This document shows positions 1,090 to 26,856 of a DNA stretch of 35,483 bases, in pieces (within the stretch, counting starts at the first letter, position 1; every line of letters begins with the position of its first letter). A program made the position numbers and the translations under genes. Under the pieces are notes generated by a model, which was given only the letters and a program-made list of their open reading frames with translations, searched no databases and had not been told where the DNA came from. This stretch comes from a virus: the IMG/VR virus record IMGVR_UViG_3300025674_000155, positions 1-35,483 of that record; one strand, given 5' to 3'.

Positions 1090-3612
1090 ATGTCATTTTA
1101 TACATCAGTAGTTCGTTATTCTAACTATATGCTTTACCGTGGCTATGATAATAACGGTAAAAAAATATTCAGAAAAGATTTTTTCAAACCAACATTCTAC
1201 ATACCAGCCCAAAAAGATACGGGTTGGCGTGGACTGGATGGTACAGCAGTTGGACCTGTTGAATTTGAATCCATGCGCGAGGCCAAAGGATGGCTTGAGC
1301 AATATGAAGATGTAAAAGGATTTCAAGTTTATGGTTCAACTAACTATATTCACCAATACATTACGGAAAAATTTCCACGTGATATTGAATTTGATCGTGA
1401 CCTAATTAATGTAACCACAATTGATATTGAAACTGCATATGAAAATGGATTTCCTAATCCAGAAGATGCAGACCAAGAAATATTGGCCATCACAATGAAA
1501 AATAATATTGATGGCATTTATCACGTTTGGGGTTATGGTGACTTTGATACAGAGGCATCTCTTATCAAACCGGTTCAATATCGTAAGTGTAAGGACGAAG
1601 TAGAACTTCTAGTAAGTTTTCTTGATTTTTATTCCAGACAAGATGTAATACCAGACGTATTAACTGGTTGGAATGTTAGGTTCTTTGATGTGCCATATCT
1701 TGTAAACCGAGTGTCTCGCATACTTGGTCTTGATATGGTAAAAAAGTTCTCTCCTTGGGGTATGATTGAACATCGTAATATAACTCGTATGAATCGTAAG
1801 GAAATCACATACGATATCAGAGGTGTTCAGATCCTAGACTATCTGGAACTATTCCAAAAATTTGGTTACACATACGGAAAACAAGAATCATATAAACTTG
1901 ATCATATTGCCTATGTTGTCCTAGGGACAAAGAAACTATCCTTTGAGGAATCCGGCTCACTTCGTAATCTATATAAAGACGACCACCAAAAATATATTGA
2001 TTATAATATGAAAGATGTTGAATTGGTGGATCGTCTTGAAGATAAAATGGGTCTTATCACACTTGCCATGACCGTGGCATATAAAGGTGGTGTAAACTAT
2101 GGTGATGTGATGGGGACCGTTGCAATTTGGGAATCAATTATTTATCGAAAGTTGATTACCCAAAAATCAGTACCACTGGCATTTTCCGACAACGCAACAA
2201 AGACTAACTTTGCCGGTGGTTTTGTCAAGGATGTTCAGGTTGGAATGCATGACTGGGTTGTGTCATTTGACCTGAACTCCTTGTATCCTAATATTATTGT
2301 GCAATGGAATATGTCACCAGAGACATTGGTACGTGGTGTGCCTGGTGTAAAATCTGGCGTGGACCATTATCTTGGTTATTATGGTTCTGAATTGGATCCA
2401 CTTCATGAGGCTGTCCGTGACAAAAACTATACAGTTGCCACTAATGGATCCACATACCGTAAGGATATAGATGGGGTTGTTCCATCCATTATTGTTGACT
2501 ATTATGATGACCGACGGTCTGTTAAAAACCAAATGTTGGCAGCAGAAAAACAATATCAAAAAACAAAAACGTATGAACTTGAAAAAGAAATTAATCGGTT
2601 GCATAACCAACAGATGGCTATTAAAATTTTGATGAACTCACTTTATGGTGCTCTTGGTAATCAATATTTTAAATACTTTGACTTGCAGGTTGCCGAGGCC
2701 GTAACCTTAACAGGGCAGATGGTTATCCAATGGGCAGAAAAAGCCGTTAATGAAACTATGAATAAGGTAATGAAAACAAATGGAAAAGATTACGTTATTG
2801 CTATTGATACCGATTCTCTTTATATTAATTTCGGTCCTCTTATAGAGCAATTAAATCCAAAAAATCCAGTACAGTTTCTTGATAAGGTTTGCCAAGAACA
2901 TTTTGAACCTATTCTGAAAAAATCCTATGATGATCTATTCCATAAGATGAATGGTCACAAACCAAGAATGGAAATGTCAAGAGAGGTTATTGCAGACCGC
3001 GGAATCTGGACTGCCAAGAAACGCTATATACTTAATGTGCATAACTCAGAAGGTGTACAGTATGATGAACCTAAACTCAAAATTATGGGCATTGAGGCCA
3101 TCAAGTCGTCAACTCCCGAGGTTGTCCGAGGTAAATTCAAAGAGGCATTTCGGATTATCATTTCGCAAGGTGAAAAAGATACTCAGAACTTCATACAGAA
3201 ATTCAAATCGGATTTTAAATCGCTCCCACCCGAGGCAGTGGCATTTCCACGGGGTGTCTCGAATATTACAGACTGGCGCGATAGGAAAACTATATACAAG
3301 AAAGGTAGCCCTATTCACGTCCGAGGATCCTTGCTATATAATAAACACCTCAAAGATGGAAAACTCACACAAAAATATGAATTAATTGAAAATGGCAGTC
3401 GGATTAAATTCTGTTATCTAAAACTACCAAACAGAATTAAGGAAAACGTAATTGCATTCCCAGACCAATTACCAAAAGAATTACAACTTGACCGCTATAT
3501 AGATTATGAATTACAATTTGAAAAAACATTTATTGAACCACTCAGACTAATATTGGATGCAGTTGGTTGGACAGTAGAAGAACAACAGACACTGGAGGAT
3601 TTCTTTGTATGA
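1090..3612 (+). CDS. 43: DNA polymerase, family B (T4 gp43-like)
   Basis: This is the replicative DNA polymerase of a T4-like phage, with 3'-5' exonuclease and polymerase domains in 840 aa (T4 gp43 is 898 aa). Exonuclease motifs: Exo I DIET (D112, E114), Exo II GWNVRFFDVPYL, Exo III YNMKDVELV. Polymerase motifs: A SFDLNSLYPNII (D394), B KILMNSLYGALGN, C IAIDTDSLYI (D573, D575), then KKRYI. The N-terminal FYTSVVRYSNYMLYRGYD resembles gp43. It begins at ATG 1090 after GGAGG and has its own early-type promoter. Its stop overlaps the next gene as ATGA. No intein or intron is seen. Confidence 0.97.
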   Translation: MSFYTSVVRYSNYMLYRGYDNNGKKIFRKDFFKPTFYIPAQKDTGWRGLDGTAVGPVEFESMREAKGWLEQYEDVKGFQVYGSTNYIHQYITEKFPRDIEFDRDLINVTTIDIETAYENGFPNPEDADQEILAITMKNNIDGIYHVWGYGDFDTEASLIKPVQYRKCKDEVELLVSFLDFYSRQDVIPDVLTGWNVRFFDVPYLVNRVSRILGLDMVKKFSPWGMIEHRNITRMNRKEITYDIRGVQILDYLELFQKFGYTYGKQESYKLDHIAYVVLGTKKLSFEESGSLRNLYKDDHQKYIDYNMKDVELVDRLEDKMGLITLAMTVAYKGGVNYGDVMGTVAIWESIIYRKLITQKSVPLAFSDNATKTNFAGGFVKDVQVGMHDWVVSFDLNSLYPNIIVQWNMSPETLVRGVPGVKSGVDHYLGYYGSELDPLHEAVRDKNYTVATNGSTYRKDIDGVVPSIIVDYYDDRRSVKNQMLAAEKQYQKTKTYELEKEINRLHNQQMAIKILMNSLYGALGNQYFKYFDLQVAEAVTLTGQMVIQWAEKAVNETMNKVMKTNGKDYVIAIDTDSLYINFGPLIEQLNPKNPVQFLDKVCQEHFEPILKKSYDDLFHKMNGHKPRMEMSREVIADRGIWTAKKRYILNVHNSEGVQYDEPKLKIMGIEAIKSSTPEVVRGKFKEAFRIIISQGEKDTQNFIQKFKSDFKSLPPEAVAFPRGVSNITDWRDRKTIYKKGSPIHVRGSLLYNKHLKDGKLTQKYELIENGSRIKFCYLKLPNRIKENVIAFPDQLPKELQLDRYIDYELQFEKTFIEPLRLILDAVGWTVEEQQTLEDFFV

Positions 3613-3998
3613 CAAACTTTAAGGCCGTAGGCGAATTTATGAACACATTTGGTCAAGAGGTAAAGACAGAACCGGATTGGCCAGATGAGGACACCCAGAA
3701 ATTAAGACTTGAATTGATTGCTGAAGAACTAGAGGAGATGTGGGATGCGATTGAAAATAAAGACCTCGTCAGTGTTGCTGATGCTCTTACTGACATTCTG
3801 TACGTTACTTATGGTGCAGGTCATGCTTTCGGTATAGACCTTGATAAGTGCTTTGAGGAAGTACAAAGATCTAATATGAGTAAACTTGGTGAAGATGGTA
3901 AACCTATTTACCGTGAGGATGGTAAAGTATTAAAAGGTCCAAATTATTCGGAACCAGATCTAAAAAACACTTTACATTTTCCGAAAGATGTGATATAA
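3609..3998 (+). CDS. MazG-like NTP pyrophosphohydrolase
   Basis: The 129-aa product matches the all-alpha NTP-PPase fold (MazG/PRA-PH). An acidic metal-binding helix ELIAEELEEMWDAIE is followed by a second helix with DALTDILYVTYG, giving the ExxE...ExxD-type arrangement. A tail FEEVQRSNMSKLGEDGKP is typical of phage and bacterial homologues. Such enzymes hydrolyse nucleoside triphosphates to monophosphates, and phage versions are thought to adjust host nucleotide pools or ppGpp. The start at ATG 3609 overlaps the polymerase stop (ATGA), indicating coupling. Promoter P2 for the next gene is embedded in its last codons. Confidence 0.85.
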   Translation: MTNFKAVGEFMNTFGQEVKTEPDWPDEDTQKLRLELIAEELEEMWDAIENKDLVSVADALTDILYVTYGAGHAFGIDLDKCFEEVQRSNMSKLGEDGKPIYREDGKVLKGPNYSEPDLKNTLHFPKDVI

Positions 3999-4024: not shown

Positions 4025-4984
4025 ATGCATTATCCACAGTATCCAATCTATATTATCTCTAAAGGCAGATGGGATTCACGTATGACACAACGTACGATGG
4101 AAGACCTAGGTTTGCCATACCGAATTGTCATTGAAGATTCTGAATATGACAAATACGCAGAAAATGTACCTAAGGAAAAAATCTTAGTTTTACCAGATGG
4201 TTTTCGTGATAATCCACTATATGCAAAAGTGGATGAAAACACTGGACTCATTGGTGGTTCAATTCCTGTCCGTAACTTTGTTTGGGAACATTCCATCTCT
4301 GAAGGTCATGATCGCCATTGGGTTCTAGATGATAATATGAGACACATTTATCGGCTACATCAAAACAAAAAAATTCGAATGGAATCCGGATCATCATTTA
4401 GGATCATTGAGGACTTTGTTAACAGATACGAAAATGTAAAATTGGCCGGTATGAATTATGCATTCTTTTGCCCATCAATGGTTAAACGGCCACCATATTA
4501 TGTGAACACTAGAATTTACTCTTGTATTCTAATTGATAACTCATTGCCATTCCGTTGGCGTGGCAGATTCAATGAGGATACTGATTTATCAATACGTGTA
4601 TTAAAAGAAAATGCATGTACCATGTTGTTTAATCAATTCCTTGTCGGCAAGGCCGCCACTATGACAATGAAAGGTGGTAATACCGAAGAGGTTTACAACA
4701 TCGATAAGGTTGGTGACCGAAACCATCGTGAAGGTGCCGATGACTTTGATAACCGTAGGGAATTTGCAGATTCACTTGTAACGCAACACCCTGACGTTGT
4801 TAAGGTTGCATTTAAATGGGGCAGATGGCATCACAATGTTGATTATTCAGTATTCTTACAAAAACCTAAAATGAAACCTGGACTAAATATACCACGTGGC
4901 ACTAATGAATACGGAATGGTATTAAAGGAAATTTCGCCAGACCAATTAGATGATGATAAAGGAGATGAGAACAGTGGCGACTAA
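4025..4984 (+). CDS. GREB1/TAGT-type glycosyltransferase, copy 1
   Basis: The 319-aa product resembles the TET-associated glycosyltransferase (TAGT) / GREB1 group, GT-A-fold enzymes found in phages and predicted to transfer sugars onto modified DNA bases. Visible features are the N-terminal IYIISKGRWDSR, the mid-protein acidic motif HWVLDDNM (DxD-like, binding nucleotide-sugar and metal), CILIDNSLPFRWRGRFNEDTDLSIR, and MTMKGGN. It shares this plan with the protein at 5257-6156, so the two are paralogues. It has its own promoter and lies next to the DNA polymerase. The DNA target is inferred from family knowledge; protein or glycan acceptors are possible. Confidence 0.75.
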   Translation: MHYPQYPIYIISKGRWDSRMTQRTMEDLGLPYRIVIEDSEYDKYAENVPKEKILVLPDGFRDNPLYAKVDENTGLIGGSIPVRNFVWEHSISEGHDRHWVLDDNMRHIYRLHQNKKIRMESGSSFRIIEDFVNRYENVKLAGMNYAFFCPSMVKRPPYYVNTRIYSCILIDNSLPFRWRGRFNEDTDLSIRVLKENACTMLFNQFLVGKAATMTMKGGNTEEVYNIDKVGDRNHREGADDFDNRREFADSLVTQHPDVVKVAFKWGRWHHNVDYSVFLQKPKMKPGLNIPRGTNEYGMVLKEISPDQLDDDKGDENSGD

Positions 4985-5267
4985 TAAAAACAATGTGGAT
5001 GATGTATCAAATAATTTGTTTATATTATCCGGTGATGAAGAAGAAAGGACTCCATACGAGTGGGACGGTATGCCAGCATTTGAACAACCAAAGGGTGAAG
5101 CAGAAATTAAAATGATTGTGCGATTCAGAACTTACGAAGATGTAAGAGAATTTGCAGAAAAAATTGGTCAGAATAATATTACTGACCGAACAAAGTCCAT
5201 TTGGTATCCAGCATTGGATAAAGGCCGAAACAGTTTATTACGCTGGATGGATGAGGATGATGCTTAA
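4974..5267 (+). CDS. Conserved phage protein with TKSIWYP motif, between the two glycosyltransferases
   Basis: Unknown 97-aa acidic protein. I favour GTG 4974 because AAAGGAG (4958-4964) sits 9 nt upstream; ATG 4965 in the same frame abuts that site too closely. The sequence contains WDGMPAFEQP, a central VRFRTYEDVREFAEKIGQ and then TKSIWYP, a pattern I have seen in many small phage proteins of unknown role. It overlaps both glycosyltransferase genes, so it probably belongs to the same pathway or complex. No catalytic motif is visible. Confidence 0.7.
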   Translation: MATNKNNVDDVSNNLFILSGDEEERTPYEWDGMPAFEQPKGEAEIKMIVRFRTYEDVREFAEKIGQNNITDRTKSIWYPALDKGRNSLLRWMDEDDA

Positions 5268-6156
5268 CCCAAAAAAATACTTAACGGAAACAACTGATAT
5301 ATTCCAAGATGTAGAAACACATTTTGATATTGAATCATATGTTTCTGATCTTATTTCGTCTTATGATCAACATACAAAAGTTGAAGAGCCAATTTATATT
5401 TTATCAAAGGGTCGACATGATTGTACATATACCAATTTAACCCTTGATAAGGATAATGTTTCCTATAAGTTTATTGTTGAACCTCAAGACTATGATGCCT
5501 ATGCAGAAAACCATGGTACTGAAAAATTAGTAAAGTTGGATAAAAATAATGGTGGTATTGATTACGCCAGAAATTTTGCAAAGGAATATTCCAGAAGTCA
5601 AGATGAAAAATGGCACTGGCAAATGGATGATGATATCCAAAATTTCAGAATCAGAATGAATGGTAAGAATGAAAAAATGCCAGCAAGGCATAATTTATCC
5701 ATAGTTGAAAATACCACAAAACTTTTTGATAATATTGCTATATCTGGAATCAGTAGTTCAGCATTTGCCTTTTCAAAGAAACAGCCAGTAAAGATTAATC
5801 AACTTGCATATTCATGTGTATTGATAAACAATTCGGTTGACCTAAAGTGGGATATTGGTGGCTGTGAGGATTGGCATTATACCTTATGTGCACTAGAAAA
5901 GAATTGGTGTACAATTGCCTTTTCACACGTTGTTTTTGATGCACCTACAACTGGTGTACAAAAAGGCGGCAATATGACCCATTGGGAATCAACCGAAAAA
6001 CGTAAACAATTATATGAACGGTTTGTAAAACACTGGCCAAATAACTTTGCTGTAAAACCTATGACTGGACCAAAGGGTTGGAAACTTCAACATAAGAGAA
6101 GATTCTTTACTGATTATAAACAGAAACCAATAATTAATGGTTTACATTTACAGTGA
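5257..6156 (+). CDS. GREB1/TAGT-type glycosyltransferase, copy 2
   Basis: Paralogue of the protein at 4025-4984. It has an extra N-terminal segment of about 45 residues, then IYILSKGRHD, a DYARNFAKEYS helix, HWQMDDDIQNF (acidic metal/nucleotide-sugar motif), SCVLINNSVDLKWDIGGCEDWHY and GVQKGGN. These align in order with IYIISKGRWD, LDDN, CILIDNSLPFRW, NEDTD and MKGGN of copy 1. The start is uncertain among ATG 5251, 5257 and 5260; all overlap the upstream gene. Divergence between the copies suggests different acceptors or sequential sugar additions. The enzyme class is reasonably secure; the substrate is inferred. Confidence 0.72.
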   Translation: MMLNPKKYLTETTDIFQDVETHFDIESYVSDLISSYDQHTKVEEPIYILSKGRHDCTYTNLTLDKDNVSYKFIVEPQDYDAYAENHGTEKLVKLDKNNGGIDYARNFAKEYSRSQDEKWHWQMDDDIQNFRIRMNGKNEKMPARHNLSIVENTTKLFDNIAISGISSSAFAFSKKQPVKINQLAYSCVLINNSVDLKWDIGGCEDWHYTLCALEKNWCTIAFSHVVFDAPTTGVQKGGNMTHWESTEKRKQLYERFVKHWPNNFAVKPMTGPKGWKLQHKRRFFTDYKQKPIINGLHLQ

Positions 6157-6169
6157 TATATGATATAAT
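6141..6169 (+). promoter_or_regulatory. Early-type promoter P3, predicting a leaderless mRNA
   Basis: TTTACA (6141-6146), 17 bp, TATAAT (6164-6169). Counting six bases from the -10, position +1 is 6176, the A of the downstream ATG. No Shine-Dalgarno precedes that ATG. The AAACAC extension is absent here. The promoter lies in the last codons of glycosyltransferase 2. Confidence 0.75.
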
Positions 6170-6175
6170 ACTATT

Positions 6176-7108
6176 ATGCAAATATCCGGTACTATATTCA
6201 AATCTTTATTTGACAACAAAACTCAAGGCAGATTCGATCTGGCAGACTTTGATGCATTTGAAAAAGTTCTATATGAACTGTCCGAAGTAAAACGTAAGGA
6301 CAAAAAAGATGCATCATTAATGTCACCTGCTACATATTTGGCAGATACCACACGTAAGAATGATAATGTCATTGAATGGTCTGGTTGGTGTTGTGTGGAT
6401 ATTGATGATTATAAACCAAATGGAGATTTGGAATATGATTTACTTAACCGTTTTGGTAATTATCGTTTTGTTTGCTATAGTACGGCAAGTAGTACAATCG
6501 ATCAACCAAAGTTCAGACTTGTGTTCCCACTTACGACATCGGTTGAACGAGACAAAATTAAGCACTTCTGGTATGCGCTTAACACAGAACTCGGAGACCT
6601 CGCAGATAAGCAGACTAAAGACTTATCTAGAATGTATTATATCCCTGCGACGTATGGTAATGCTCACAACTTTATTTTTAGTAATAGAGACAGTGATTTT
6701 ATTGATCCTAATGAATTAATGTTCAAACATGAATATCATCAGAAATCAAATCTTAATAATTTCTTTGATAGATTACCTGATGCCATTCAACAACAAATTA
6801 TCGAACACCGTAAACAGAAATTAGATAATACAAATATTGCCTGGACATCCTATAGAGATTGTCCATTCTTTCCTAAAAAACTTGAGGCAGAATATCGCCT
6901 TATTAATAATACTGGTTGGTACCATAAAATGTATCAGATTATGGTTGCCATTGCCGGTAATGCCATTAAAAGAAATTATCCAATTACGTCTGCAGAAATA
7001 TCCAAAATGTGCAGAGAACTTGATATGGAAACAGGTAACTGGTATGAGAACCGGCCACTGGATAAAGAAGCCGATAGAGCTCTAGAATACGTATACAAAA
7101 ATATGTAA
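6176..7108 (+). CDS. AEP/primase-like protein (BT4734-type N-terminal domain)
   Basis: The 310-aa product resembles archaeo-eukaryotic primase-like domains (BT4734/RepB-type). WCCVDIDDYKPNGD around residue 70 has the paired-acidic DID motif, then YSTASSTIDQPKFRLVFPLT, which resembles the FRLVxPL strand near the second active-site segment, and KDLSRMYYIPATYGN. The C-terminal half (ISKMCRELD, DKEADRALEYVY) resembles PriCT-like helical tails. If correct, it would make primers beside the gp43 polymerase, and no canonical gp61 primase is visible in this window. Promoter position predicts leaderless translation. The family call is moderate; a nucleic-acid-binding non-enzyme is possible. Confidence 0.55.
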   Translation: MQISGTIFKSLFDNKTQGRFDLADFDAFEKVLYELSEVKRKDKKDASLMSPATYLADTTRKNDNVIEWSGWCCVDIDDYKPNGDLEYDLLNRFGNYRFVCYSTASSTIDQPKFRLVFPLTTSVERDKIKHFWYALNTELGDLADKQTKDLSRMYYIPATYGNAHNFIFSNRDSDFIDPNELMFKHEYHQKSNLNNFFDRLPDAIQQQIIEHRKQKLDNTNIAWTSYRDCPFFPKKLEAEYRLINNTGWYHKMYQIMVAIAGNAIKRNYPITSAEISKMCRELDMETGNWYENRPLDKEADRALEYVYKNM

Positions 7109-7136
7109 TTTTTTTAATTTTTTTGTAAAAAAACAC

Positions 7137-7165
7137 TTTACATTATACTCTAGATGGTTTATAAT
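7137..7165 (+). promoter_or_regulatory. Early-type promoter P4
   Basis: TTTACA (7137-7142), 17 bp, TATAAT (7160-7165), with AAACAC upstream and ATG-GTT before the -10. Preceded by T-rich runs (7109-7124). The leader contains TAAGTGTTTT and then GGAGCTAAA before ATG 7200, both repeated in the leader of promoter P10 at 24540. Confidence 0.87.
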
Positions 7166-7199
7166 AGTATTATAAGTGTTTTTAATTTAGGAGCTAAAC

Positions 7200-7454
7200 A
7201 TGACAAATTTCGGAATCAACTTTGTAAGTGCACAAGATGCAGGTCTTACCCTTACTATTGAAACTTTAAATGGTGAAATCCAGCGTCGTGCAAAAGATGC
7301 ATACGATGTTGCAGATTGGATCAAAGAATTTGGTATTTCATCAAGATGTTTCTTTTCATCAACCATGGACTTTGCTGCAGAAGAAGGTTTTGCAGATGAT
7401 GATGGTGCAATGGAAATGTTTGATCGTGGCGCCAAAATTGCTGGAGTTGCATAA
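7200..7454 (+). CDS. Unknown early protein (84 aa)
   Basis: Small acidic protein expressed from promoter P4 with the shared GGAGCTAAA leader. The sequence includes GEIQRRAKDAYDVADWIKEF and a C-terminal acidic helix ending DRGAKIAGVA. No domain is recognised. Promoter class and position suggest an immediate-early gene, possibly a host-takeover factor. Its stop overlaps the start of the next gene (TAATG). Confidence 0.75.
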   Translation: MTNFGINFVSAQDAGLTLTIETLNGEIQRRAKDAYDVADWIKEFGISSRCFFSSTMDFAAEEGFADDDGAMEMFDRGAKIAGVA

Positions 7455-8140
7455 TGTACAGTAAAGAGTTTATGGCTACTTTAGGCCAATATGTTTATGG
7501 TTATCTACCAAATGGTCAACTCTTTGATCCTGAAAATGAATATTTGGGTAAAGGTGTTGATAAAAGATGCCTGGATCATGTAAAGGAAAAAGGCCTAAAT
7601 CCAGAAAATATTTGGATCGTTGGTAGAAATCTAGAAAAATACGCAGAGACAACTCCTGCGCATGAAATCGCATCATTTGCCGTTGAGGCATTAATGCTTG
7701 CCACACAGAAACCAAAACACAATACAGCAAGTGGCAGATACCAACAGGACTGTTGGATTAATACCAAACTATCTGACCTATACGCAGAGTGGCAAAAAAC
7801 ACAGATTAATATTTACAAAGAAATGAACAGATTTGTTTCTGAATATAATCTGGATGATACTCTTTCCTCTGGTTGGTGGAGTGGTTCATCATTTATGTTA
7901 TCTGCTGGTAGAGCAAACAGTATTGAGAAATACATTAACGTTACTCCACTTGTAGATGGTTATGAAAACTATGTCAGATTTGCATTTTCAAATTCTAAGG
8001 AAATGTCAAAGAAAGAAAGAGCTAAATCATGGGCAATAGATAATCCAGATTATGATATATCGTTCAATGATGCTGGAGATACAATTGACATTAAAGGTCT
8101 TTCCATAAATGATGCTCTTGATTTGTGGTCATCTCAATAA
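7454..8140 (+). CDS. Unknown early protein (228 aa)
   Basis: Coupled to the upstream early gene by a TAATG overlap. The 228-aa protein is soluble, with aromatic-rich patches (YVYGYLPNGQLFDPENEYLG, SGWWSGSSFMLSAGRANS). I recognise no motif or family. It is the last gene before the sugar-nucleotide module, and a poor -10-like TATAAT (8146-8151) follows it. Confidence 0.75.
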   Translation: MYSKEFMATLGQYVYGYLPNGQLFDPENEYLGKGVDKRCLDHVKEKGLNPENIWIVGRNLEKYAETTPAHEIASFAVEALMLATQKPKHNTASGRYQQDCWINTKLSDLYAEWQKTQINIYKEMNRFVSEYNLDDTLSSGWWSGSSFMLSAGRANSIEKYINVTPLVDGYENYVRFAFSNSKEMSKKERAKSWAIDNPDYDISFNDAGDTIDIKGLSINDALDLWSSQ

Positions 8141-8169
8141 TACTATATAATATCATAAGGAGAAATGAT

Positions 8170-8994
8170 ATGAAAAATATTGCAATCATTGGTCACGGCT
8201 ATGTTGGTAAAGCCGTAGACTATGGATTCAACACCAACGAAGTAAAGAAAATCCTTATTGATCCTGCACTGTATAATAACAGTCTTGAGGATCTACGAGG
8301 TACAAGAATTGATGCATCATTTGTTTGTGTTCCTACCCCTATGGGTAAGGACGGGTCAATTGATGCATCTATTGTTATCCAAACTGTAAAGGATTTAGCC
8401 TCAATTACTCAAGGAATGATTGTAATTAAATCAACTGTCGTTCCAAGTGTTGTGGAAGATTTATCCAATGTGCATCGTCACGTGATTTATAATCCGGAAT
8501 TTCTTACTGAAAAGAATGCATTGGATGATTTTATTAATCCACCTATGCATGTCTTTGGTGGTGATTCTAAAACCACAAAGGAACTCGAAAAACTTTATGA
8601 GAACCATTCACGGTGTAAACCCTGTCCTGTATTCCATATGACTGCCATGGAAGCATCATTTGTTAAATATGGTATTAATTCATTCCTTGCAACTAAGGTT
8701 CTATGGATGAATCAGTTCCAGGATATTTGTGATAACTATCATGCAAAATACAACGTGATTGCAAATGTCATTGGTTCGGATCCACGTATTGGCCACAGTC
8801 ATATGCAAGTACCTGGTCCAGATGGCCGTAAAGGATTTGGTGGTGCCTGTTTCCCTAAGGATACAAAAGCCTTTGCTCACTTTGCAGATAAAGAGTTTTC
8901 TATTCTGAACGAAGTCATTGAGCAAAATAACCATTACCGCGCACAATATGAACTTGACGACCGTGAAAAAGAACAAAATGTGGTTTACATTTAA
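8170..8994 (+). CDS. UDP-glucose/GDP-mannose dehydrogenase family protein
   Basis: The 274-aa product is a nucleotide-sugar 6-dehydrogenase that oxidises a UDP- or GDP-hexose to the uronic acid using NAD+. The N-terminal Rossmann motif IAIIGHGYVGKAV, VCVPTPMGKDG, KSTVVPS, YNPEFLTEKNA and the catalytic segment GFGGACFPKDTKAF (nucleophile C227) are present. It is shorter than bacterial Ugd (about 390-430 aa), lacking most of the C-terminal UDP-binding domain, as compact phage versions can. ATG 8170 follows AAGGAGAAATGAT. It heads a sugar-nucleotide module with the next two genes. Confidence 0.9.
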   Translation: MKNIAIIGHGYVGKAVDYGFNTNEVKKILIDPALYNNSLEDLRGTRIDASFVCVPTPMGKDGSIDASIVIQTVKDLASITQGMIVIKSTVVPSVVEDLSNVHRHVIYNPEFLTEKNALDDFINPPMHVFGGDSKTTKELEKLYENHSRCKPCPVFHMTAMEASFVKYGINSFLATKVLWMNQFQDICDNYHAKYNVIANVIGSDPRIGHSHMQVPGPDGRKGFGGACFPKDTKAFAHFADKEFSILNEVIEQNNHYRAQYELDDREKEQNVVYI

Positions 8995-9012
8995 CGGTAA
9001 ATGTGATATAAT
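8984..9012 (+). promoter_or_regulatory. Early-type promoter P5 (before epimerase)
   Basis: TTTACA (8984-8989), 17 bp, TATAAT (9007-9012), with ATG-TGA before the -10. The AAACAC extension is absent. It overlaps the end of the dehydrogenase gene. The leader carries TAGGAG before ATG 9036. Confidence 0.82.
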
Positions 9013-9035
9013 AATCAAAACGTTAGGAGTAAAAA

Positions 9036-9992
9036 ATGGCTAAAATTGCAATTACAGGCCTTGCTGGATTTATTGGATTTCATCTAGCACAAAAATTACA
9101 TGCCGATGGTCACCACGTTGTTGGTTTTGATAATTTTAATGATTATTATGATCCAGAGCTTAAAAAAGCTAGGGCTCGAAAACTTATAGACAGATGTGGT
9201 ATTGTGGTAGAGGATAGTGACCTTACTGATACCAAATATATGGATGATTGGTTTTATTATAAAAGACCTGATATTGTAATGCACCTTGCCGCATATGCAG
9301 GTGTACGCCATTCGATGGTTGACCCAGGTAATTATATCCAAAACAATGTTGTCGGTACTCATAATCTAATCGAGGCCTGTACCAAGGCTGGTGTTGACAA
9401 AGTTGTTTTTGCATCCACATCTTGTGTGATGGCTGGTAATCCATTACCTTGGAACGAATCAGAAAAACTTGGTTATCAGTTAAACCCTTATGGTTATACC
9501 AAGGCAACAAATGAATCACAGTTTATGGCATCAACAATACCTACGACTGTTGGTCTTAGATTCTTTACCGTGTATGGTCCATGGGGTCGGCCTGATATGG
9601 CTCTATTTGATTTTACCAAAAATATTATTGCCGGTAATTCAATTGATCTATTTAATAATGGTGATATGATTCGTGATTTTACTTATGTAGATGATATTGT
9701 AAATGGTATTCAAATTATATTAGAAAAAAGTTTGCAAGATTCCGAGGCAAAAGAAATATATAATATTGGTAATGGGAGACAAGTTCCACTTATGGAATTT
9801 GTTGAGAACATTGAAAAACAACTCGGTCGTACGGCAGAAAAAAACTATGTGCCAAAACATCCAGCAGATACTAGGGCAACCTGGTCCGATACCACAAAAC
9901 TTCAGGCGTTAGGTTACAAGGCAGAAACCCCTATTGAACAGGGTGTGGAAAAATTCGTTTCCTGGTATAAATCATATTATGGAGTAAATTAA
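9036..9992 (+). CDS. NAD-dependent nucleotide-sugar epimerase (UDP-glucuronate 4-epimerase-like)
   Basis: The 318-aa extended short-chain dehydrogenase has GLAGFIGFHLAQKL (GxxGxxG NAD site), then FDNFNDYYDPELKKARARKL, which is characteristic of UDP-glucuronate epimerases. MHLAAYAGVRHSM, a serine strand VFASTSCVMAG, and the catalytic YGYTK (YxxxK) follow. The RFFTVYGPWGRPDMALFDFT stretch strongly resembles the glucuronate-epimerase group. With the upstream dehydrogenase it would convert UDP-glucose to UDP-glucuronate to UDP-galacturonate. Its stop overlaps the start of the cytidylyltransferase gene. It has its own promoter P5. Confidence 0.9.
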   Translation: MAKIAITGLAGFIGFHLAQKLHADGHHVVGFDNFNDYYDPELKKARARKLIDRCGIVVEDSDLTDTKYMDDWFYYKRPDIVMHLAAYAGVRHSMVDPGNYIQNNVVGTHNLIEACTKAGVDKVVFASTSCVMAGNPLPWNESEKLGYQLNPYGYTKATNESQFMASTIPTTVGLRFFTVYGPWGRPDMALFDFTKNIIAGNSIDLFNNGDMIRDFTYVDDIVNGIQIILEKSLQDSEAKEIYNIGNGRQVPLMEFVENIEKQLGRTAEKNYVPKHPADTRATWSDTTKLQALGYKAETPIEQGVEKFVSWYKSYYGVN

Positions 9993-10411
9993 TGAAAGTC
10001 GGTTTGACTGCTTCAACATTTGATCTGTTACATGCAGGTCATATTGCAATGTTACGTGAAGCAAAGTCTCAGTGTGATCATCTAATTTGTGCATTACAAG
10101 TGGACCCATCCGTTGATAGGCCAGAAAAAAATGCACCAGTACAGTCCATCGTGGAACGATATGCACAACTCTCAGCAGTAACCTATGTTGATGAGGTATT
10201 GGTCTATTGTACCGAAGAGGATCTATTAGATATCATACAGATGTATCCCATTGACCTTAGGATTCTTGGTGAAGAATACCGAGACAAGGACTTCACCGGA
10301 AAGGATGAATGTCGCAGAAGAGGCATTCAATTATATTTCAACAAACGTGAACACAGATTTAGTTCTAGTGATTTACGCAAACGTGTAGCCTTAAAAGAAA
10401 AGGGGAAATAA
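9992..10411 (+). CDS. Cytidylyltransferase (glycerol-3-phosphate / sugar-phosphate type)
   Basis: The 139-aa nucleotidyltransferase has the signature TASTFDLLHAGHIAML (HxGH) and a C-terminal RFSSSDLRKR corresponding to the (I/Y)SSTxxR motif. Size and motifs match TagD-like glycerol-3-phosphate cytidylyltransferases and related sugar-phosphate enzymes, which form CDP-activated precursors. It is coupled to the epimerase (TAATG). With the two preceding enzymes it implies supply of activated sugars or polyols, plausibly for the two TAGT glycosyltransferases or for surface glycans. The exact substrate cannot be read from sequence. Confidence 0.87.
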   Translation: MKVGLTASTFDLLHAGHIAMLREAKSQCDHLICALQVDPSVDRPEKNAPVQSIVERYAQLSAVTYVDEVLVYCTEEDLLDIIQMYPIDLRILGEEYRDKDFTGKDECRRRGIQLYFNKREHRFSSSDLRKRVALKEKGK

Positions 10412-10635: not shown

Positions 10636-11685
10636 ATGTCAATAATGGATAAACTCAAAAAGAATTCCAAGTTAAAAGCTACGGAAGTTCTTTCTGAGTC
10701 CAAATTTTTTAATGAAAAGGATATGGTACCGACAGATGTACCTATGGTAAATGTCGCACTATCCGGATCAACAGAGGGTGGACTTGCCCCGGGCCTTACA
10801 GTCCTTGCCGGTCCATCAAAACACTTTAAAACATCATTTGCCTTATTAATGGCAAGTGCATATATGAAAAAATACAAAGATGCCGTAATGCTCTTTTACG
10901 ATTCAGAGTTTGGTTCACCTCAGGCATACTTTGAACAATTTGAAGTTGACACATCTCGTGTATTACATACACCAATCACAAACGTAGAAGAACTTAAATT
11001 TGATTTAATTGGTCAACTTGAAGGTCTGGATCGTAATGATAAGGTTATTATTGTTATTGATTCAATTGGTAATCTTGCATCCAAGAAAGAAATGGAAGAT
11101 GCCATCAATGAAAAATCTGTGGCCGATATGTCACGGGCCAAGGCACTTAAAGGTTTGTTCCGTATGACAACACCTTATCTTGCCATGAAAGATATTCCAC
11201 TTCTTGCAGTAAATCATACCTATCAAGAAATTGGATTATTCCCTAAGGCAATTGTGTCTGGTGGTACTGGCATTTATTACTCAGCCGATAACATTTGGAT
11301 CCTTGGTCGTAGACAGAATAAAAAGGGTACAGAGGTTACTGGTTATGACTTCGTAATCAATGTGGAAAAATCCCGGTACGTAAAAGAAAAATCCAAAATT
11401 CCTATTACCGTATCATGGGAAGGTGGTGTTGAAAAATACTCTGGCCTTCTGGATGTGGCAATGGTTGGTGGTTATGCACAGAAACCAAGCAATGGTTGGT
11501 ATGAGGCAATTGATCCATCAACTGGTGAAGTACTTACTGGCAAAACTCGTGAGGCCGGGACACTTGAAGAAGAATTTTGGGATCCAGTATTTGCCAAAAC
11601 AGATTTCAAAGAATACATTAAAAAGGCATATACGATTGGTCATAAATCAGAAATCGATATGGATGCACTAGTCGATGAAGCATAA
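10636..11685 (+). CDS. uvsX: UvsX, RecA-like recombinase
   Basis: The 349-aa strand-exchange protein is the T4 UvsX orthologue, which forms filaments on ssDNA for recombination-dependent replication and repair. Walker A is AGPSKHFKTS (residues 58-67), matching the phage-specific GPSKxFKS form, and Walker B lies at VIIVIDSIGNL. MFYDSEFG-like and NHTYQEIG segments also match. The C-terminus is acidic, as in T4 UvsX. Its last codons overlap the next gene by 11 nt, and the operon continues to the gp41 helicase, as in marine T4-like phages. Confidence 0.95.
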   Translation: MSIMDKLKKNSKLKATEVLSESKFFNEKDMVPTDVPMVNVALSGSTEGGLAPGLTVLAGPSKHFKTSFALLMASAYMKKYKDAVMLFYDSEFGSPQAYFEQFEVDTSRVLHTPITNVEELKFDLIGQLEGLDRNDKVIIVIDSIGNLASKKEMEDAINEKSVADMSRAKALKGLFRMTTPYLAMKDIPLLAVNHTYQEIGLFPKAIVSGGTGIYYSADNIWILGRRQNKKGTEVTGYDFVINVEKSRYVKEKSKIPITVSWEGGVEKYSGLLDVAMVGGYAQKPSNGWYEAIDPSTGEVLTGKTREAGTLEEEFWDPVFAKTDFKEYIKKAYTIGHKSEIDMDALVDEA

Positions 11686-16701: not shown

Positions 16702-17715
16702 ATGAATAAATTTTTAATTGCTGCAGCAGCAGTAATGACAGTAGCGTGGGCAACGGTTGCTCAGGCAGATCCGTTTAAGGTTGGTTTCGTATATGTGGGA
16801 CCAGTCGGCGATCACGGTTGGACATATATGCATGATAAAGGCCGTCAGCAAGTTGAAGAACACTTTGGTGATGCCGTTGAAACTATCTTTGTTGAATCAG
16901 TACCAGAAGGACCAGATGCAGAACGTGTAATGCGTAATATGATTGCAGAAGGTGTAGATATGATCTTTACCACATCATTTGGTTATATGGAACAAACTGT
17001 AAAAGTTGCCAAAGAGAATCCTGATGTACTCTTTGAACATGCAACTGGTTATAAAACTGCACCAAACCTTTCTGTATATTCCTCACGTTTTTATGAGGGT
17101 CGTTATGTACAGGGTGTGATTGCTGGTCATATGTCCAAAGCAGGTAAGGCTGGTTATATTGCATCATTTCCAATTCCAGAAGTGATTCGTGGAATTAATG
17201 CATTTTATCTTGGCGCAATCTCTGTAAATCCAGATTTTGATATTGATGTTGTATGGGTAAACACATGGTATGATCCACCAAAAGAAGCAGATGCAGCAAA
17301 AGTTTTGATGGCAGCAGGTGCTGATATTATTACTCAGCATACAGATTCTCCTTCACCATTGGCCGCGGCCTCTGCTAATGGCATTAAAGGTTTTGGTCAG
17401 GCATCAGATATGATTCAGTTTGCACCTGATACTCAGTTGACTGCTATTCTAGATGAATGGGGACCTTATTATATTGCTCGTGTACAAGCAGGAATTGATG
17501 GCACATGGAGTGAAACCAATACTTGGGGTGGTATGGATACAGGAATGGTTGATATGGCGCCAATGACAAATATGGATCCAGAACTTGCTGCACATGCCGA
17601 GCATATTGCACATCACATTAAGACAGGTCACTTCAAACCTTTTGGTGATCTTGACGATGGGGCACTTGCAACCATGATGGAATATGTTGACGGATTGGAT
17701 GCAGCAAAACCCTAA
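16702..17715 (+). CDS. BMP-family ABC-transporter substrate-binding protein
   Basis: The 337-aa secreted protein belongs to the Bmp/Med/PnrA group of periplasmic binding proteins, whose studied members bind nucleosides or purines. The signal peptide covers about residues 1-22 with cleavage after AQA; there is no lipobox Cys, so it should be a free periplasmic protein. Family features are KVGFVYVGPVGDHGWTYMHDKG, MIFTTSFGYMEQ, YKTAPNLSVYSSRFYEGRYVQG, ADIITQHTDSPSPL and ILDEWGPYY. The gene is full length and A+T-rich like its neighbours, so it is long resident. No permease or ATPase is nearby, so it would have to use a host transporter. It has its own promoter. Confidence 0.9.
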   Translation: MNKFLIAAAAVMTVAWATVAQADPFKVGFVYVGPVGDHGWTYMHDKGRQQVEEHFGDAVETIFVESVPEGPDAERVMRNMIAEGVDMIFTTSFGYMEQTVKVAKENPDVLFEHATGYKTAPNLSVYSSRFYEGRYVQGVIAGHMSKAGKAGYIASFPIPEVIRGINAFYLGAISVNPDFDIDVVWVNTWYDPPKEADAAKVLMAAGADIITQHTDSPSPLAAASANGIKGFGQASDMIQFAPDTQLTAILDEWGPYYIARVQAGIDGTWSETNTWGGMDTGMVDMAPMTNMDPELAAHAEHIAHHIKTGHFKPFGDLDDGALATMMEYVDGLDAAKP

Positions 17716-17976: not shown

Positions 17977-18489
17977 ATGTTATTTTATTGGTACATTTTT
18001 TATTTTATCTTTGCGACAATCGGCGCAACATTAGGATTGCATAGATATTGGGCTCATAGAAAAGGCTCTAGAAATATCTGGTTTGAATGGATATCGTTAA
18101 TCTGTGCATTAATAATTGGCGTTTATAAACCCATAAGCTGGATAGGAATTCATAGACTACATCACAAATACAGTGATACCGCAAAAGATCCACACTCACC
18201 AAAATATCAAGGCTTTTGGAAAGTATTTTTATCTAGATGGGAAGGTCACATACCTTATCATTTGGTAAAGGACTGTGTAAGAAATCCTAGAATGAGATTC
18301 TTTCAGAGGTATGGCAAATACCTTATTTGGCCTGTAATTATTTTTTCTCCGTATACAATCATTCTAGGATATATTGGAATAGGAATATTAAATACTGCGG
18401 GACATTCGAATGGGCCAGCTAATCACTGGTGGATAAACATATTGGCACCATTTGAAGGGAATCATAAGGATCACCATGCAGGTTTATGA
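17977..18489 (+). CDS. Compact fatty-acid (acyl-CoA) desaturase
   Basis: The 170-aa membrane di-iron desaturase contains all three histidine boxes in order: LGLHRYWAHR, IHRLHHKYSD and GNHKDHH. Hydrophobic segments flank them (IFYFIFATIGATLG, WISLICALIIGVY, LIWPVIIFSPYTIILGYI). Bacterial acyl-CoA desaturases are usually 250-320 aa, so this is unusually short and ends soon after box three. It would introduce a double bond into membrane fatty acids. It begins 15 nt after the tmRNA with only a weak ribosome site, and the next gene starts inside its last codons. It heads the oxygenase cassette. Confidence 0.82.
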   Translation: MLFYWYIFYFIFATIGATLGLHRYWAHRKGSRNIWFEWISLICALIIGVYKPISWIGIHRLHHKYSDTAKDPHSPKYQGFWKVFLSRWEGHIPYHLVKDCVRNPRMRFFQRYGKYLIWPVIIFSPYTIILGYIGIGILNTAGHSNGPANHWWINILAPFEGNHKDHHAGL

Positions 18490-19474
18490 TATAAAAGGAG
18501 AATGTCCTCAGATTATAAAGGATATATTCCATGATGAGATAGAGTATATTGCAAACAGTGATTTACAATTAAAAGAAAATTATTCAATTACAAGATTAAA
18601 ATTGGATTCAATGATTTCCTTTGATGTTCTTATCGATGATGAGATGGACCTAGTTTGCTTTGGTGGATTACAAAAGATTAATGATGAAATTGCTAGAGTA
18701 TCCTCAAGACATTATATGTCACAAAAGTATATAAAGACTTGGAAACAAGATAGGTTTAGGCCAAACTGGCAGTATCTTGTACCAAAGCAAATTCAACACG
18801 CATATGATTTGGGATACAAGGGTTTATTTTGGTCTGCACACATCTACAAGAAAAAGTCTCTGTTTGATCTTACATGTAAGAATGCCGAAGAGTTTACCGA
18901 TATAAAATTTACACCTCTGTCTGGGCTATATAACATATATGGTGTAGGTCAAAGGGTGTGTCAGATTGGTGACCATGAATTAGGTTTTGCAAAAGAGAAT
19001 ATCTTTATGAATGATGATTATTTTTACCAATACAAAGATGAGCTATACACCTTGTTGAATAATCCACCAGCCAATGTAAACGTAGGTGGTTGGTTAGATC
19101 ATGATTCTGGTCTCATTGATATTGTAGAACTTGAATCACATCCCATAGTTAACTACCTTGGTAAATACTTTGATGACATAAAAAAAGTTATGGTTGGTAA
19201 AACAAAAGGTGGAGTAATACCACCACATCAAGACCAGAGTGAACGAGATGATAACATGCACATGAAGATTAGAGTAGACGGAGACTGGTCTAGTTTCTAT
19301 GTGCAAGATAAAACATACGGATGGAAAACATATTTCCCGAATACGGCAAACATAGCAATATTTGATAACGAAAAGAATGTGCATGGGGTAGACACAGATG
19401 AGTTTTTAATTCTGATACCCTATGGTAAATTGAAAAGAGAAATATATGAACGAGTTGATACAGAAAGTCGCTGA
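18476..19474 (+). CDS. 2OG-type oxygenase-like protein with N-terminal GNAT-like region
   Basis: 332-aa protein starting at ATG 18476 (AAGGA five nt upstream). The C-terminal third has a cupin-type Fe(II)/2OG core: PPHQDQ gives H251 and D253, MHMKIRVDGDW follows, and NVHGVD gives H303, then FLILIPYGK. The N-terminal ~170 residues, with an EIARVSSRHYMSQKYIK stretch and QIQHAYDLGYKGLFW, loosely resemble a GNAT acyltransferase fold; this half of the call is weak. A two-domain protein would be unusual. It overlaps the desaturase by 14 nt and the next gene by 29 nt. Confidence 0.65.
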   Translation: MQVYDIKGECPQIIKDIFHDEIEYIANSDLQLKENYSITRLKLDSMISFDVLIDDEMDLVCFGGLQKINDEIARVSSRHYMSQKYIKTWKQDRFRPNWQYLVPKQIQHAYDLGYKGLFWSAHIYKKKSLFDLTCKNAEEFTDIKFTPLSGLYNIYGVGQRVCQIGDHELGFAKENIFMNDDYFYQYKDELYTLLNNPPANVNVGGWLDHDSGLIDIVELESHPIVNYLGKYFDDIKKVMVGKTKGGVIPPHQDQSERDDNMHMKIRVDGDWSSFYVQDKTYGWKTYFPNTANIAIFDNEKNVHGVDTDEFLILIPYGKLKREIYERVDTESR

Positions 19475-20270
19475 AGAAGGAATTGTAGTACTCAAAAATC
19501 AGCATATGTCTGACGAAGAGTTCTACCAGAAAAATCTAACCTGGGGTAAACACCAAGCATCTGGCATCCATGCATGTCACGAAGATTATCCTATCATATT
19601 TCGCGTTACAAATAAAAAGTTACCTAACGGCAAACAAGGACTGTTTAGTCGTGGTTTTTTAGATTGGCACTGTAATAATATGTTCTGTGTGGATCCAGAA
19701 GAAGTTGTATGTCTGTGGGGTAAAAAGGTAATCAAGAATGCTCCTACCATCTGGGCACATTGTACCAATATGTACCGAGACCTACCAGAAACTTTGAAAA
19801 AAGAATTGGATGATGTTTGGGTTACAATGTCTAATATCCATAACATCAAAGATGGTGGTCGGATCTATACCGGCGCAGGTGATCTTGATATGGAAGATGT
19901 AATCAAACTTGATAAGTGGAACTTCCGTACACGTGAAGGATTAGAAGCAGGGCTCTTTGATCCAAACCTTAGTGCCAAACAATTAAAATCAGGTCGATAT
20001 CTAATCAAAGTAAAAAAGAAGCTTGTGAGGATTCACCCAGTGACCAGAGAGAAAGTTCTATACTTCCCATTCGGTCATATGTCAGATTTTCCACATAAGG
20101 ATGAGTTAGTCGAACGACTGATGCAACCACAATATATCTACACCCATGAATGGGAGGAGGGTGACATCGTGTTCTCGGATCAACTTATGACAATCCACAA
20201 GCGTGATGCCACACTTGATACAGAAGAGAAACGAGAACTGTACAGGACTACTTTTTATTATGATGTATGA
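19446..20270 (+). CDS. TauD/TfdA-like dioxygenase homologue with HxN triad variant
   Basis: The 274-aa protein follows the TauD/TfdA plan: an N-terminal EGIVVLKNQHMSDEEF (gVvvl..q.Ls.ee.), then LFSRGFLDWHCNNMF where the metal-binding HxD is expected, TIWAHCTNMYRDLP, and a C-terminal EGDIVFSDQLMTIHKRDA...YRTTF with distal His251 and Arg. The proximal motif reads His75-Cys76-Asn77, so the usual Asp ligand is Asn. That change could weaken iron binding or indicate altered chemistry. It overlaps both neighbours (29 nt and 11 nt). The family is clear; activity is uncertain. Confidence 0.8.
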   Translation: MNELIQKVAEEGIVVLKNQHMSDEEFYQKNLTWGKHQASGIHACHEDYPIIFRVTNKKLPNGKQGLFSRGFLDWHCNNMFCVDPEEVVCLWGKKVIKNAPTIWAHCTNMYRDLPETLKKELDDVWVTMSNIHNIKDGGRIYTGAGDLDMEDVIKLDKWNFRTREGLEAGLFDPNLSAKQLKSGRYLIKVKKKLVRIHPVTREKVLYFPFGHMSDFPHKDELVERLMQPQYIYTHEWEEGDIVFSDQLMTIHKRDATLDTEEKRELYRTTFYYDV

Positions 20271-20859
20271 TTATTTTAGATCTGCTAGGAAAAAGCAAAG
20301 AGCATCTCATTTAAGATATTTTCTAATGCACATGATGTACAAATACGGGTTTGACTTTGATACATATATTGATATTGGCGCATGCAATAGTGTTGAGTTG
20401 GATCAATACTGTGACTTATTTGATAATGTGGTTGCATTTGAGCCTAATCCAGAAGCTACCATTACACCTAGGGATAATCTGATACTGCATCAAAAGGCAT
20501 TATCTGACCTAGAAGAAGTCCGTAGTTTCCACATTGACATGACCATACCACATTACTCTACTTTGAACAGATGGGAAATGGACAAGTATATCCCAGAAGG
20601 TCACGATTGGAAAATCATGCAAGTCACTACAGCAAAACTTGATGATTACGAATTAAAGGCCAGTTGTATAAAAATTGACACAGAAGGTGAGGATGATGCC
20701 GTCGTGCGTGGCGCGTACAACACTATAGCAGAATGGAAACCTATACTTTACCTTGAGTTTATGAGCCAAGAAACAGAACAATTACTTATAGATATAGGGT
20801 ACACAGTTGAATATTCATCATGGATAGACAACTTTCTAATTCACGAGGATTACATATGA
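20260..20859 (+). CDS. FkbM-family SAM-dependent methyltransferase
   Basis: The 199-aa protein matches FkbM methyltransferases: motif I TYIDIGACNSVELDQY, acidic strand VVAFEPNPEA, ALSDLEEVRSFHID, TTAKLDDYELKASCIKIDTEGEDDAVVRGA and WKPILYLEF. Such enzymes O-methylate sugars or polyketide hydroxyls, and in bacteria often modify surface glycans. ATG 20260 or 20263 overlaps the TauD-like stop. The stop overlaps the next start as ATGA. Within this cassette it could cap hydroxyls created by the oxygenases; that is inference. Confidence 0.87.
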   Translation: MMYDYFRSARKKQRASHLRYFLMHMMYKYGFDFDTYIDIGACNSVELDQYCDLFDNVVAFEPNPEATITPRDNLILHQKALSDLEEVRSFHIDMTIPHYSTLNRWEMDKYIPEGHDWKIMQVTTAKLDDYELKASCIKIDTEGEDDAVVRGAYNTIAEWKPILYLEFMSQETEQLLIDIGYTVEYSSWIDNFLIHEDYI

Positions 20860-21476
20860 TTGATATGGTAAAAATTATTGATGACATTCCGTCCTTTCAG
20901 GATGCTTGTCAGGTATGTGCAGAATATGGAGAACTTGATTTAGAATTAGACTTAAAAAAAGTTACACAGGAAGAGGTTAACACCGTGCCTTTACAGACAT
21001 GGCACCAAGATGGCTCTCATGTTCGGTACTTTCCAAAATACAGTGCATTGTGGTGTGAAACAGCAGAGGAAAATGCACCCATTACTCAAATTATATCTAC
21101 TCGACTGCCAGATGTAATAGCTGAAAAATATCAAAATGAATCTGTGGTGATGGACTTTAAAAAAACAATCGATGAAGGTTCATTCTTTAAATTTAAAAAG
21201 GCTTCACACGCAAGATTATATGCAATGAAGGCCAATAAAACCCCTATGTCCTTAGTAGAGCAAGATGAAAAAGGATGGTTTACAAGGTGGTGTCCTTTCC
21301 TAAAAGATGCAGAAAAATATAAAGATCTTGAAAATATTATCTTGGCCAGAGATATCACAAGTATTAAATGGAAACCAAACAGACTTATAATAATGGAAAA
21401 TAAAGCTACATTACATAGACGTAAGCCTGGAACATATAATGGAGACAGAGTACTGTGGAGAGCCTATATAAGGTAA
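20856..21476 (+). CDS. TauD-like Fe(II)/2OG dioxygenase with intact triad
   Basis: 206-aa protein beginning at the ATGA overlap. QTWHQDGSH provides His50 and Asp52, RYFPKYSALWCETAEENAPI fits the TauD strand after the metal motif, and ATLHRRKPGTYNGDRVLWRAYIR provides His187 and the Arg pair for 2-oxoglutarate. The complete facial triad predicts a working hydroxylase of an unknown small substrate. It is shorter than TauD (283 aa). It is coupled to the SGNH gene by TAATG. Confidence 0.82.
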   Translation: MIDMVKIIDDIPSFQDACQVCAEYGELDLELDLKKVTQEEVNTVPLQTWHQDGSHVRYFPKYSALWCETAEENAPITQIISTRLPDVIAEKYQNESVVMDFKKTIDEGSFFKFKKASHARLYAMKANKTPMSLVEQDEKGWFTRWCPFLKDAEKYKDLENIILARDITSIKWKPNRLIIMENKATLHRRKPGTYNGDRVLWRAYIR

Positions 21477-26834: not shown

Positions 26835-26856
26835 ACTCTTTAAGAAGGTAAGAAAA

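Follow-up and report, generated by a model that had tools for sequence, protein, structure and literature searches.

A TAGT glycosyltransferase and its constant partner gene in a probable DNA-hypermodification slot of a marine T4-like phage

The interval between the DNA polymerase and uvsX genes of a marine T4-like phage is probably an exchangeable DNA-hypermodification slot, here in a variant built on the glycosyltransferase TAGT1 and a 105-aa partner protein. We favor this reading because of the position of the locus and because kin exchange TAGT1 cassettes with gp42 and TET/JBP cassettes at the same place. The purpose is most likely to sugar-coat the phage's own DNA against bacterial defences, and the encoded enzymes suggest that the sugar is probably a uronic one.

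We analyzed a 35,483-nt fragment of the phage genome (the window), assigning domains by Pfam and PHROG profile matches; all genes described from polB to uvsX lie on the + strand. The left landmark of the slot is a T4-type family B DNA polymerase (polB, gp43-like; 1090..3612; phrog_262, 1035 bits) and the right landmark is the UvsX recombinase (10636..11685; phrog_97, E 8e-87), so that the TAGT locus, between the polB end at 3612 and the uvsX start at 10636, has the position of a T4-like DNA-modification slot. Base-modification genes of Tevenvirinae generally sit in this interval (PMC8056088). A PRA-PH/MazG-like nucleotide pyrophosphohydrolase (3609..3998; PF01503, E 8e-23; phrog_671) is the sole gene separating the polymerase from TAGT1, and such a gene holds the equivalent position in many TAGT1 loci. 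The slot also includes a replication gene, a T4-type DNA primase (6176..7108; phrog_9765, E 1e-54). Two further small genes (7200..8140) encode proteins of 84 and 228 aa to which the window profile scans assigned no function. Distant homologs of both small genes adjoin the TET gene in the related locus L264, as does that of the 84-aa one in L265. A sequence-only reading of this DNA had omitted the 105-aa gene, the primase and uvsX.

That reading had placed two TAGT enzymes near the polymerase, and profile searches confirmed both. TAGT1 (4025..4984; PF20691, 146.8 bits, E 1e-42), a predicted DNA glycosyltransferase, and TAGT2 (about 5251..6156; PF20691, 97.6 bits, E 1.2e-27) score far above the curated Pfam cut-off of 27.5 bits, and both fall in PHROG 842, 'beta-glucosyl-HMC-alpha-glucosyltransferase'. 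The called TAGT2 start, TTG 5152, is probably wrong, with better sequence context at ATG 5251/5257/5260. On its AlphaFold2 model (pLDDT 84.9), TAGT1 is a GT-A-fold enzyme with an acidic metal motif: its best PDB matches are GT-A enzymes, with E values down to 9e-6 at a low TM-score of about 0.4, and D102 and D103 of the motif HWVLDDN are invariant, as is D185. The WQMDDD motif of TAGT2 aligns with WMIDDD of T6 ggt, a characterised TAGT that acts on glucosyl-hmC (PMC13216743). In the tree, which has long branches, T6 ggt and gp42-linked marine ggt stood opposite both window TAGTs with support of 100/99, and TAGT2 formed a clade of its own; hhalign matched T6 ggt only weakly to the TAGT1 profile (62%). 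Thus neither window TAGT shares the T6 ggt clade, and neither has gp42 alongside it in the slot or in 177-kb kin, the window itself being a fragment.

The nearest PDB folds to the TAGT1 model are protein or collagen glycosyltransferases (TM about 0.4), which would fit TAGT1 and its partner acting on a host or phage protein rather than on DNA. GREB1, a TAGT relative, has been reported to glycosylate protein, and we counted this for protein modification, as we did the existence of solitary TAGTs in phages lacking a hydroxylase; the TAGT relatives of the small phages 1.076.O and 1.124.O are solitary. The slot, however, is a DNA-modification slot, and to our knowledge all characterised phage TAGTs act on DNA. 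We therefore regard a protein target as very improbable indeed.

The partner gene (4950..5267) overlaps the end of TAGT1 and is a new fact from this analysis: it is the constant partner of TAGT1, adjoining it in all 20 of the dereplicated TAGT1 loci that we compared with 37 other loci. Its phage matches occur at TAGT genes only, and in PTm1, Aeh1 and locus L077 the partner domain is fused in front of the TAGT. Pfam and PHROG searches with the 105-aa protein gave no match, and its structure model (pLDDT 58) is too poor for a fold to be read.

Three sugar-nucleotide genes, recognized in the sequence-only reading as a uronate-forming dehydrogenase, a glucuronate-type epimerase and a cytidylyltransferase, were verified at 8170-10411. 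The first encodes a mini UDP-glucose 6-dehydrogenase (8170..8994; 274 aa from ATG 8170) that matches PF03721 and PF00984 only, that is, the NAD and central domains, and keeps the catalytic Cys motif GFGGACFPKD. The C-terminal UDP-binding domain (PF03720) gave no match in this protein; its PDB alignment stops before domain 3, its sequence ends past the central domain, and its homologs are mostly 260-300 aa long. The second product (9036..9992) is, judged by its nearest solved relatives, an SDR enzyme of UDP-glucuronate 4-epimerase type, predicted to convert UDP-GlcA to UDP-GalA. Its top PDB match was 5u4q (E 1.5e-77), titled dTDP-glucose 4,6-dehydratase, followed by 6zl6; we take both to be UDP-glucuronate 4-epimerase-type enzymes. 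UDP-xylose synthase was rejected as an assignment, since UXS structures score far under 5u4q. The third (9992..10411; PF01467, E 2.7e-14) is a TagD/HldE-C-like HIGH-family nucleotidyltransferase with PDB matches to ECT/TagD and a TIGR02199 score under the cut-off.

Surface polysaccharides are built by the same enzyme classes, and cyanophage clusters of epimerases, HIGH-family nucleotidyltransferases and glycosyltransferases have been proposed to serve glycans (PMC7824862), so these genes might instead act on the host capsule or O antigen or on glycans of the virion. This is very unlikely in our view: the locus is embedded among polymerase, primase and uvsX, the TAGT members of T2/T6 are DNA enzymes, and kin swap the module with gp42 and TET. 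Moreover, the slot contains no flippase, glycan-type polymerase or membrane transferase, and the locus proteins have no transmembrane-like stretch.

The slot of kin is occupied by gp42, by TET/JBP or by TAGT1, and in each case the accompanying glycosyltransferases and sugar-nucleotide enzymes are exchangeable. By locus counts, whose p-values ignore kinship and search anchoring, a UDP-glucose dehydrogenase with an epimerase accompanied 18 of the 20 TAGT1 loci vs. 11 of the 37 others (p 1.6e-5), and gp42 or TET was present in none of the 20 vs. 22 of the 37 (p 2.8e-6; neutral sample only, 0/4 vs. 19/34, p 0.1). The 18 dehydrogenases comprise two non-orthologous kinds, 11 mini and 7 full-length, which strengthens the earlier suggestion of a UDP-uronic donor. 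In kin sampled by uvsX or primase, gp42 occurs with the same dehydrogenase/epimerase/nucleotidyltransferase set (L187, L199, L280, L316), with ggt (L179, L203, L207, L233) or with a glycosyltransferase and UDP-galactopyranose mutase (L173, L225), and TET is found in L264 and L265. The gp42 copies of kin retain the dCMP-specific Asp.

These gp42 genes in the equivalent slot, together with the known T6 ggt substrate glucosyl-hmC (PMC13216743), could point to a T-even route in which a hydroxymethylase encoded outside the 35-kb fragment makes 5-hydroxymethyl-dCMP and the TAGTs glycosylate the product as in T6. We consider this quite unlikely. Against it stand the counts above, the separate clade of ggt from gp42 loci and the absence of gene 42 from phages Aeh1 and 65 (PMC2993671). 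In addition, a 177-kb TAGT1-type relative, G001, contains all 14 core genes tested and gave no PF00303, gp42 or TET match. The earlier proposal of hypermodification with a phage-made donor gained from the slot position and from the exchange with gp42 and TET in kin; the hydroxymethylcytosine route that it implied found no support, given the 0/20 count.

In agreement with that proposal, the scanned window proteins included no recognisable hydroxymethylase or TET enzyme; the scanned slot proteins likewise gave no domains of a gp42-family 5-hydroxy-dCMP synthase or an RB69-type isomerase/NTase-kinase. A wider search, with PF00303, PF12851, gp42 and TET proteins, found no hydroxymethylase or TET in TAGT1-type marine records, G001 included, and neither gp42 nor TET, as a source of the hydroxylated base, is present in the slot or in TAGT1 kin. 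Aeh1 and Kuja do have PF00303 proteins, but the Asn that these carry marks them as thymidylate synthases (those of PTm1 were left untyped). The suggestion that an oxygenase at 18-23 kb fills this role did not hold: the cassette is near-intact in the gp42-type L225 (tauD1 98%) and missing from the 177-kb TAGT1 relative, and we therefore place it outside the TAGT1 system. Other candidates were also rejected. TAGT1-type genomes have no common 2OG oxygenase (PF13640, PF05721) or C5-methyltransferase (PF00145), and ThyX is single-copy, shared with kin of other types and without sign of a second function.

If the locus serves DNA hypermodification, the dehydrogenase and epimerase would convert host UDP-glucose to UDP-glucuronate and UDP-galacturonate. 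TAGT1 and its partner, made with the replication proteins, would then glycosylate phage DNA during or after replication, the donor probably being the uronic sugar or a derivative, and TAGT2 would add a second sugar much like T6 ggt. The pyrophosphohydrolase may deplete the pool of a canonical dNTP, and activation of a further phospho-group may be the task of the nucleotidyltransferase. The phage DNA would be shielded from restriction and CRISPR-Cas nucleases. We counted several points against hypermodification: TAGT1 phages have no known base hydroxylase, the mini dehydrogenase lacks a UDP-binding domain, some loci have the sugar module but neither a TAGT nor gp42 nor TET, two TAGT1 loci (L067, L069) lack the module, and the small-phage TAGTs are solitary. 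It is conceivable, if unlikely, that TAGT1 and its partner need no dedicated hydroxylase (gp42, TET/JBP) and place a phage-made uronic sugar directly onto an ordinary base; this would be an interchangeable alternative, in the same slot, to gp42- and TET-based hypermodification.

A recognized puzzle is posed by the solitary, distant TAGTs of phages that have neither an alpha- nor a beta-glucosyltransferase, 288 of 753 phages (PMC13216743). The locus and its kin contribute a partner gene and a likely pathway to the donor, and they allow gp42, TET and TAGT1 versions of one slot to be compared cleanly. The predicted outcome is new DNA chemistry, with uronic or galactofuranosyl bases, that would be common in marine T4-like phages and relevant to restriction, CRISPR, base-specific DNA glycosylase defences and virome sequencing bias.

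Among known systems, the T2/T6 ggt locus shares the PF20691 family, the acidic metal-binding motif and the polymerase-uvsX position, T6 carrying gp42 and ggt in that interval (PMC13216743). T6, however, relies on gp42, an alpha-glycosyltransferase and host UDP-glucose, whereas the window has no gp42, two TAGTs of a clade apart from ggt, a partner gene and a predicted phage-made UDP-sugar. RB69 and Mosigvirus resemble the window in having phage sugar-nucleotide genes, those for arabinosylation in RB69, in the polymerase-uvsX interval (PMC6024577), but these are an isomerase and an NTase/kinase, joined by a GT-B transferase and the gp42-family 5-hydroxy-dCMP synthase that the window lacks. Bacillus phage SP-15 offers a precedent in that it links a phage UDP-glucose dehydrogenase, near glycosyltransferases as here, to glucuronate-bearing DNA (PMC5977210); it is an unrelated phage with a full teichoic-type cluster and a modified uracil bearing phosphoglucuronolactone. 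The nearest annotated relatives of TAGT1 (41-44%) are the TAGTs of Aeh1, 65 and PTm1, that of Aeh1 being labelled 'unknown base' (PMC8056088); they have the fused partner domain and no gp42, but lie outside the polymerase-uvsX slot, and Aeh1 and PTm1 have no adjoining UDP-uronate module. Finally, the primase-uvsX interval of phage C48C1 encodes an epimerase 53% identical to that of the window and a mini dehydrogenase of the same kind (42-43%), but there TET/JBP replaces TAGT and an adenine methyltransferase sits at the TAGT place, the TET being paired with the same glycosyltransferase and UDP-galactopyranose mutase as in L173 and L225.

The window is a linear virus record of 35,483 bases from a T4-like phage, as judged from its T4-type polymerase, primase, UvsX and DnaB-like helicase; ThyX is also encoded. 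Two TAGT genes near the polymerase, proposed in the sequence-only reading, both matched Pfam TAGT (PF20691) far over the cut-off: TAGT1 (4025-4984) with 146.8 bits and TAGT2 (called at 5152-6156, with the ATG at 5251-5260 as the more likely start) with 97.6 bits. The dehydrogenase, glucuronate-type epimerase and cytidylyltransferase of that reading correspond to a putative UDP-glucose dehydrogenase (8170-8994) that keeps the catalytic GFGGACFPKD motif without the C-terminal UDP-binding domain (mini dehydrogenase), an SDR enzyme (9036-9992) and a TagD/HldE-C-like nucleotidyltransferase (9992-10411). The top solved relatives of the SDR enzyme were 5u4q (E 1.5e-77) and 6zl6, which we take to be of the UDP-glucuronate 4-epimerase type (the title of 5u4q says dTDP-glucose dehydratase). 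Together with a PRA-PH nucleotide pyrophosphohydrolase between the polymerase and TAGT1, all six genes are enclosed by the polymerase-uvsX interval. Most mini dehydrogenase homologs in the fetched loci were 260-300 amino acids long, retaining the catalytic motif without the UDP-binding domain. Elsewhere, the window encodes a Bmp/PnrA-like nucleoside-binding protein (16702-17715; PF02608, E 4e-49), with homologs upstream of the polymerase in L012, L075 and L250, and a 166-amino acid Na/Pi cotransporter fragment (26794-27294; PF02690), with 83-87% homologs in L098, L194, L223 and L236.

We sampled related IMG/VR contigs via UvsX and primase, without selection for modification genes, and mapped their genes by tblastn. 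Besides the TAGT1 types, the interval held gp42 (dCMP hydroxymethylase) with the window-type nucleotidyltransferase, epimerase and mini dehydrogenase (L187, L199, L280, L316), gp42 with a ggt-type TAGT (L179, L203, L207, L233, L305), gp42 with a glycosyltransferase candidate and UDP-galactopyranose mutase (L173, L225, L266, L272), or a TET/JBP base oxygenase (L264, L265). The gp42 copies carry the motif MRSNDVVxGYKND, with Asp at the position of the thymidylate synthase Asn. In this interval, the cultured phage C48C1 has counterparts of the window's epimerase (53%) and mini dehydrogenase (42-43%); its TET lies elsewhere, adjoining the same glycosyltransferase candidate and mutase as in gp42-type kin. 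The same tailoring genes thus accompany either of two unrelated base-oxidising enzymes, gp42 and TET, and to us nothing speaks more strongly for DNA bases as the target of these genes. We consider DNA the probable target of the locus; the rival explanations, in which it would serve surface glycan synthesis or protein glycosylation, seem unlikely.

Several gene arrangements in kin were also observed. A cassette of gp42, the glycosyltransferase candidate (no Pfam match), mutase and an SDR gene in the primase-uvsX slot (L173, L225, L266, L272, L310, L339) predicts galactofuranosyl-hydroxymethylcytosine DNA; the same glycosyltransferase-mutase pair lies behind TET in C48C1. Two contigs closely related to the window have a TET/JBP gene in the same slot (L264:7019-8302 and L265:5736-7019), 44-45% identical to the C48C1 TET. 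Their substrate may be thymine, since no C5-methyltransferase was found in the short contigs L264 and L265 or the complete C48C1 genome. The place of TAGT1, between polymerase and primase, is taken by a 367-amino acid gene encoding a DruA-like domain (PF14236, E 5e-8) in L108, L109, L111 and L102, and by a Dam-type methyltransferase in L098/L100 and C48C1.

A 105-amino acid ORF (4950-5267) has a homolog directly after TAGT1 in kin, in 20 of 20 dereplicated intervals. Phages Aeh1 and PTm1 and contig L077 encode this segment and TAGT as one protein, with the segment in front, and among annotated phages it matched at TAGT genes only. From this constant association we infer a dedicated partner subunit of TAGT1. 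Its fold model was poor (pLDDT 58). The TAGT1 model (pLDDT 84.9) had Mn/UDP-sugar GT-A enzymes as its top solved matches, in agreement with the placement of TAGT in the GT-A fold (PMC13216743). In a tree, TAGT1 and TAGT2 were separated from T6 ggt and the gp42-linked marine ggt copies with support 100/99, although long branches advise caution.

A putative UDP-glucose dehydrogenase and an epimerase-type SDR occurred in 18 of 20 TAGT1 intervals vs. 11 of 37 others (p 1.6e-5), some of the latter having been picked for the epimerase. Eleven of the 18 combine the mini dehydrogenase with the UDP-GlcA-4-epimerase type, and seven a full-length dehydrogenase (top solved match E 8e-128; only ~28% identity to the mini form) with a different SDR. 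That one predicted function recurs in the form of different genes suggests a donor sugar that would be made from UDP-glucuronate; we regard the use of such a uronic-type donor for DNA as slightly less likely than not. A precedent comes from SP-15, in which a UDP-glucose dehydrogenase encoded by the phage serves DNA that bears glucuronate (PMC5977210).

Neither gp42 nor TET was found in any of 20 TAGT1 intervals, compared with 22 of 37 others (p 2.8e-6), or, in the neutral sample alone, 0 of 4 vs. 19 of 34 (p 0.1), both tests ignoring kinship. A gene missing from the window carries little weight alone because the window is a fragment, and a rival explanation, which we hold unlikely, has a hydroxymethylase encoded at a distant site. 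On this point, the 177-kb TAGT1-type relative G001 contains both TAGTs, the epimerase, the dehydrogenase and 14 of 14 tested core genes; searches of it for PF00303, gp42, TET, C5-methyltransferase, PF13640 and PF05721 gave no match. An oxygenase at 18-23 kb had been put forward as the base hydroxylase, a candidate we rejected because the cassette is near-identical in gp42-type L225 (tauD1 98%) and absent from G001. The cassette (18452-23018) encodes two TauD-type oxygenases, an FkbM methyltransferase, a weak GDSL-like protein and an Asp/Asn hydroxylase-like protein. That the system needs no dedicated hydroxylase at all seems unlikely to us.

Our preferred interpretation is a new type of T4-like hypermodification locus, made up of TAGT1 plus partner, TAGT2 and genes for a predicted supply of UDP-uronate. 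Two phages with TAGT1-type genes, Aeh1 and phage 65, lack gene 42 (PMC2993671); the Aeh1 TAGT enzyme is listed with 'unknown base' as target (PMC8056088). Aeh1 resembles the window in its TAGT1-type gene, but has the partner segment fused. In T6, the polymerase-uvsX interval is occupied by gp42 and ggt, a characterised TAGT (PMC13216743); a TAGT gene is common to the T6 and window intervals, whereas of these two gp42 was recognised in that of T6 alone. Base-modification genes clustered in this region in a Tevenvirinae survey (PMC8056088), and the interval that houses the arabinosylation module in RB69 (PMC6024577) houses the TAGT and sugar genes in the window.
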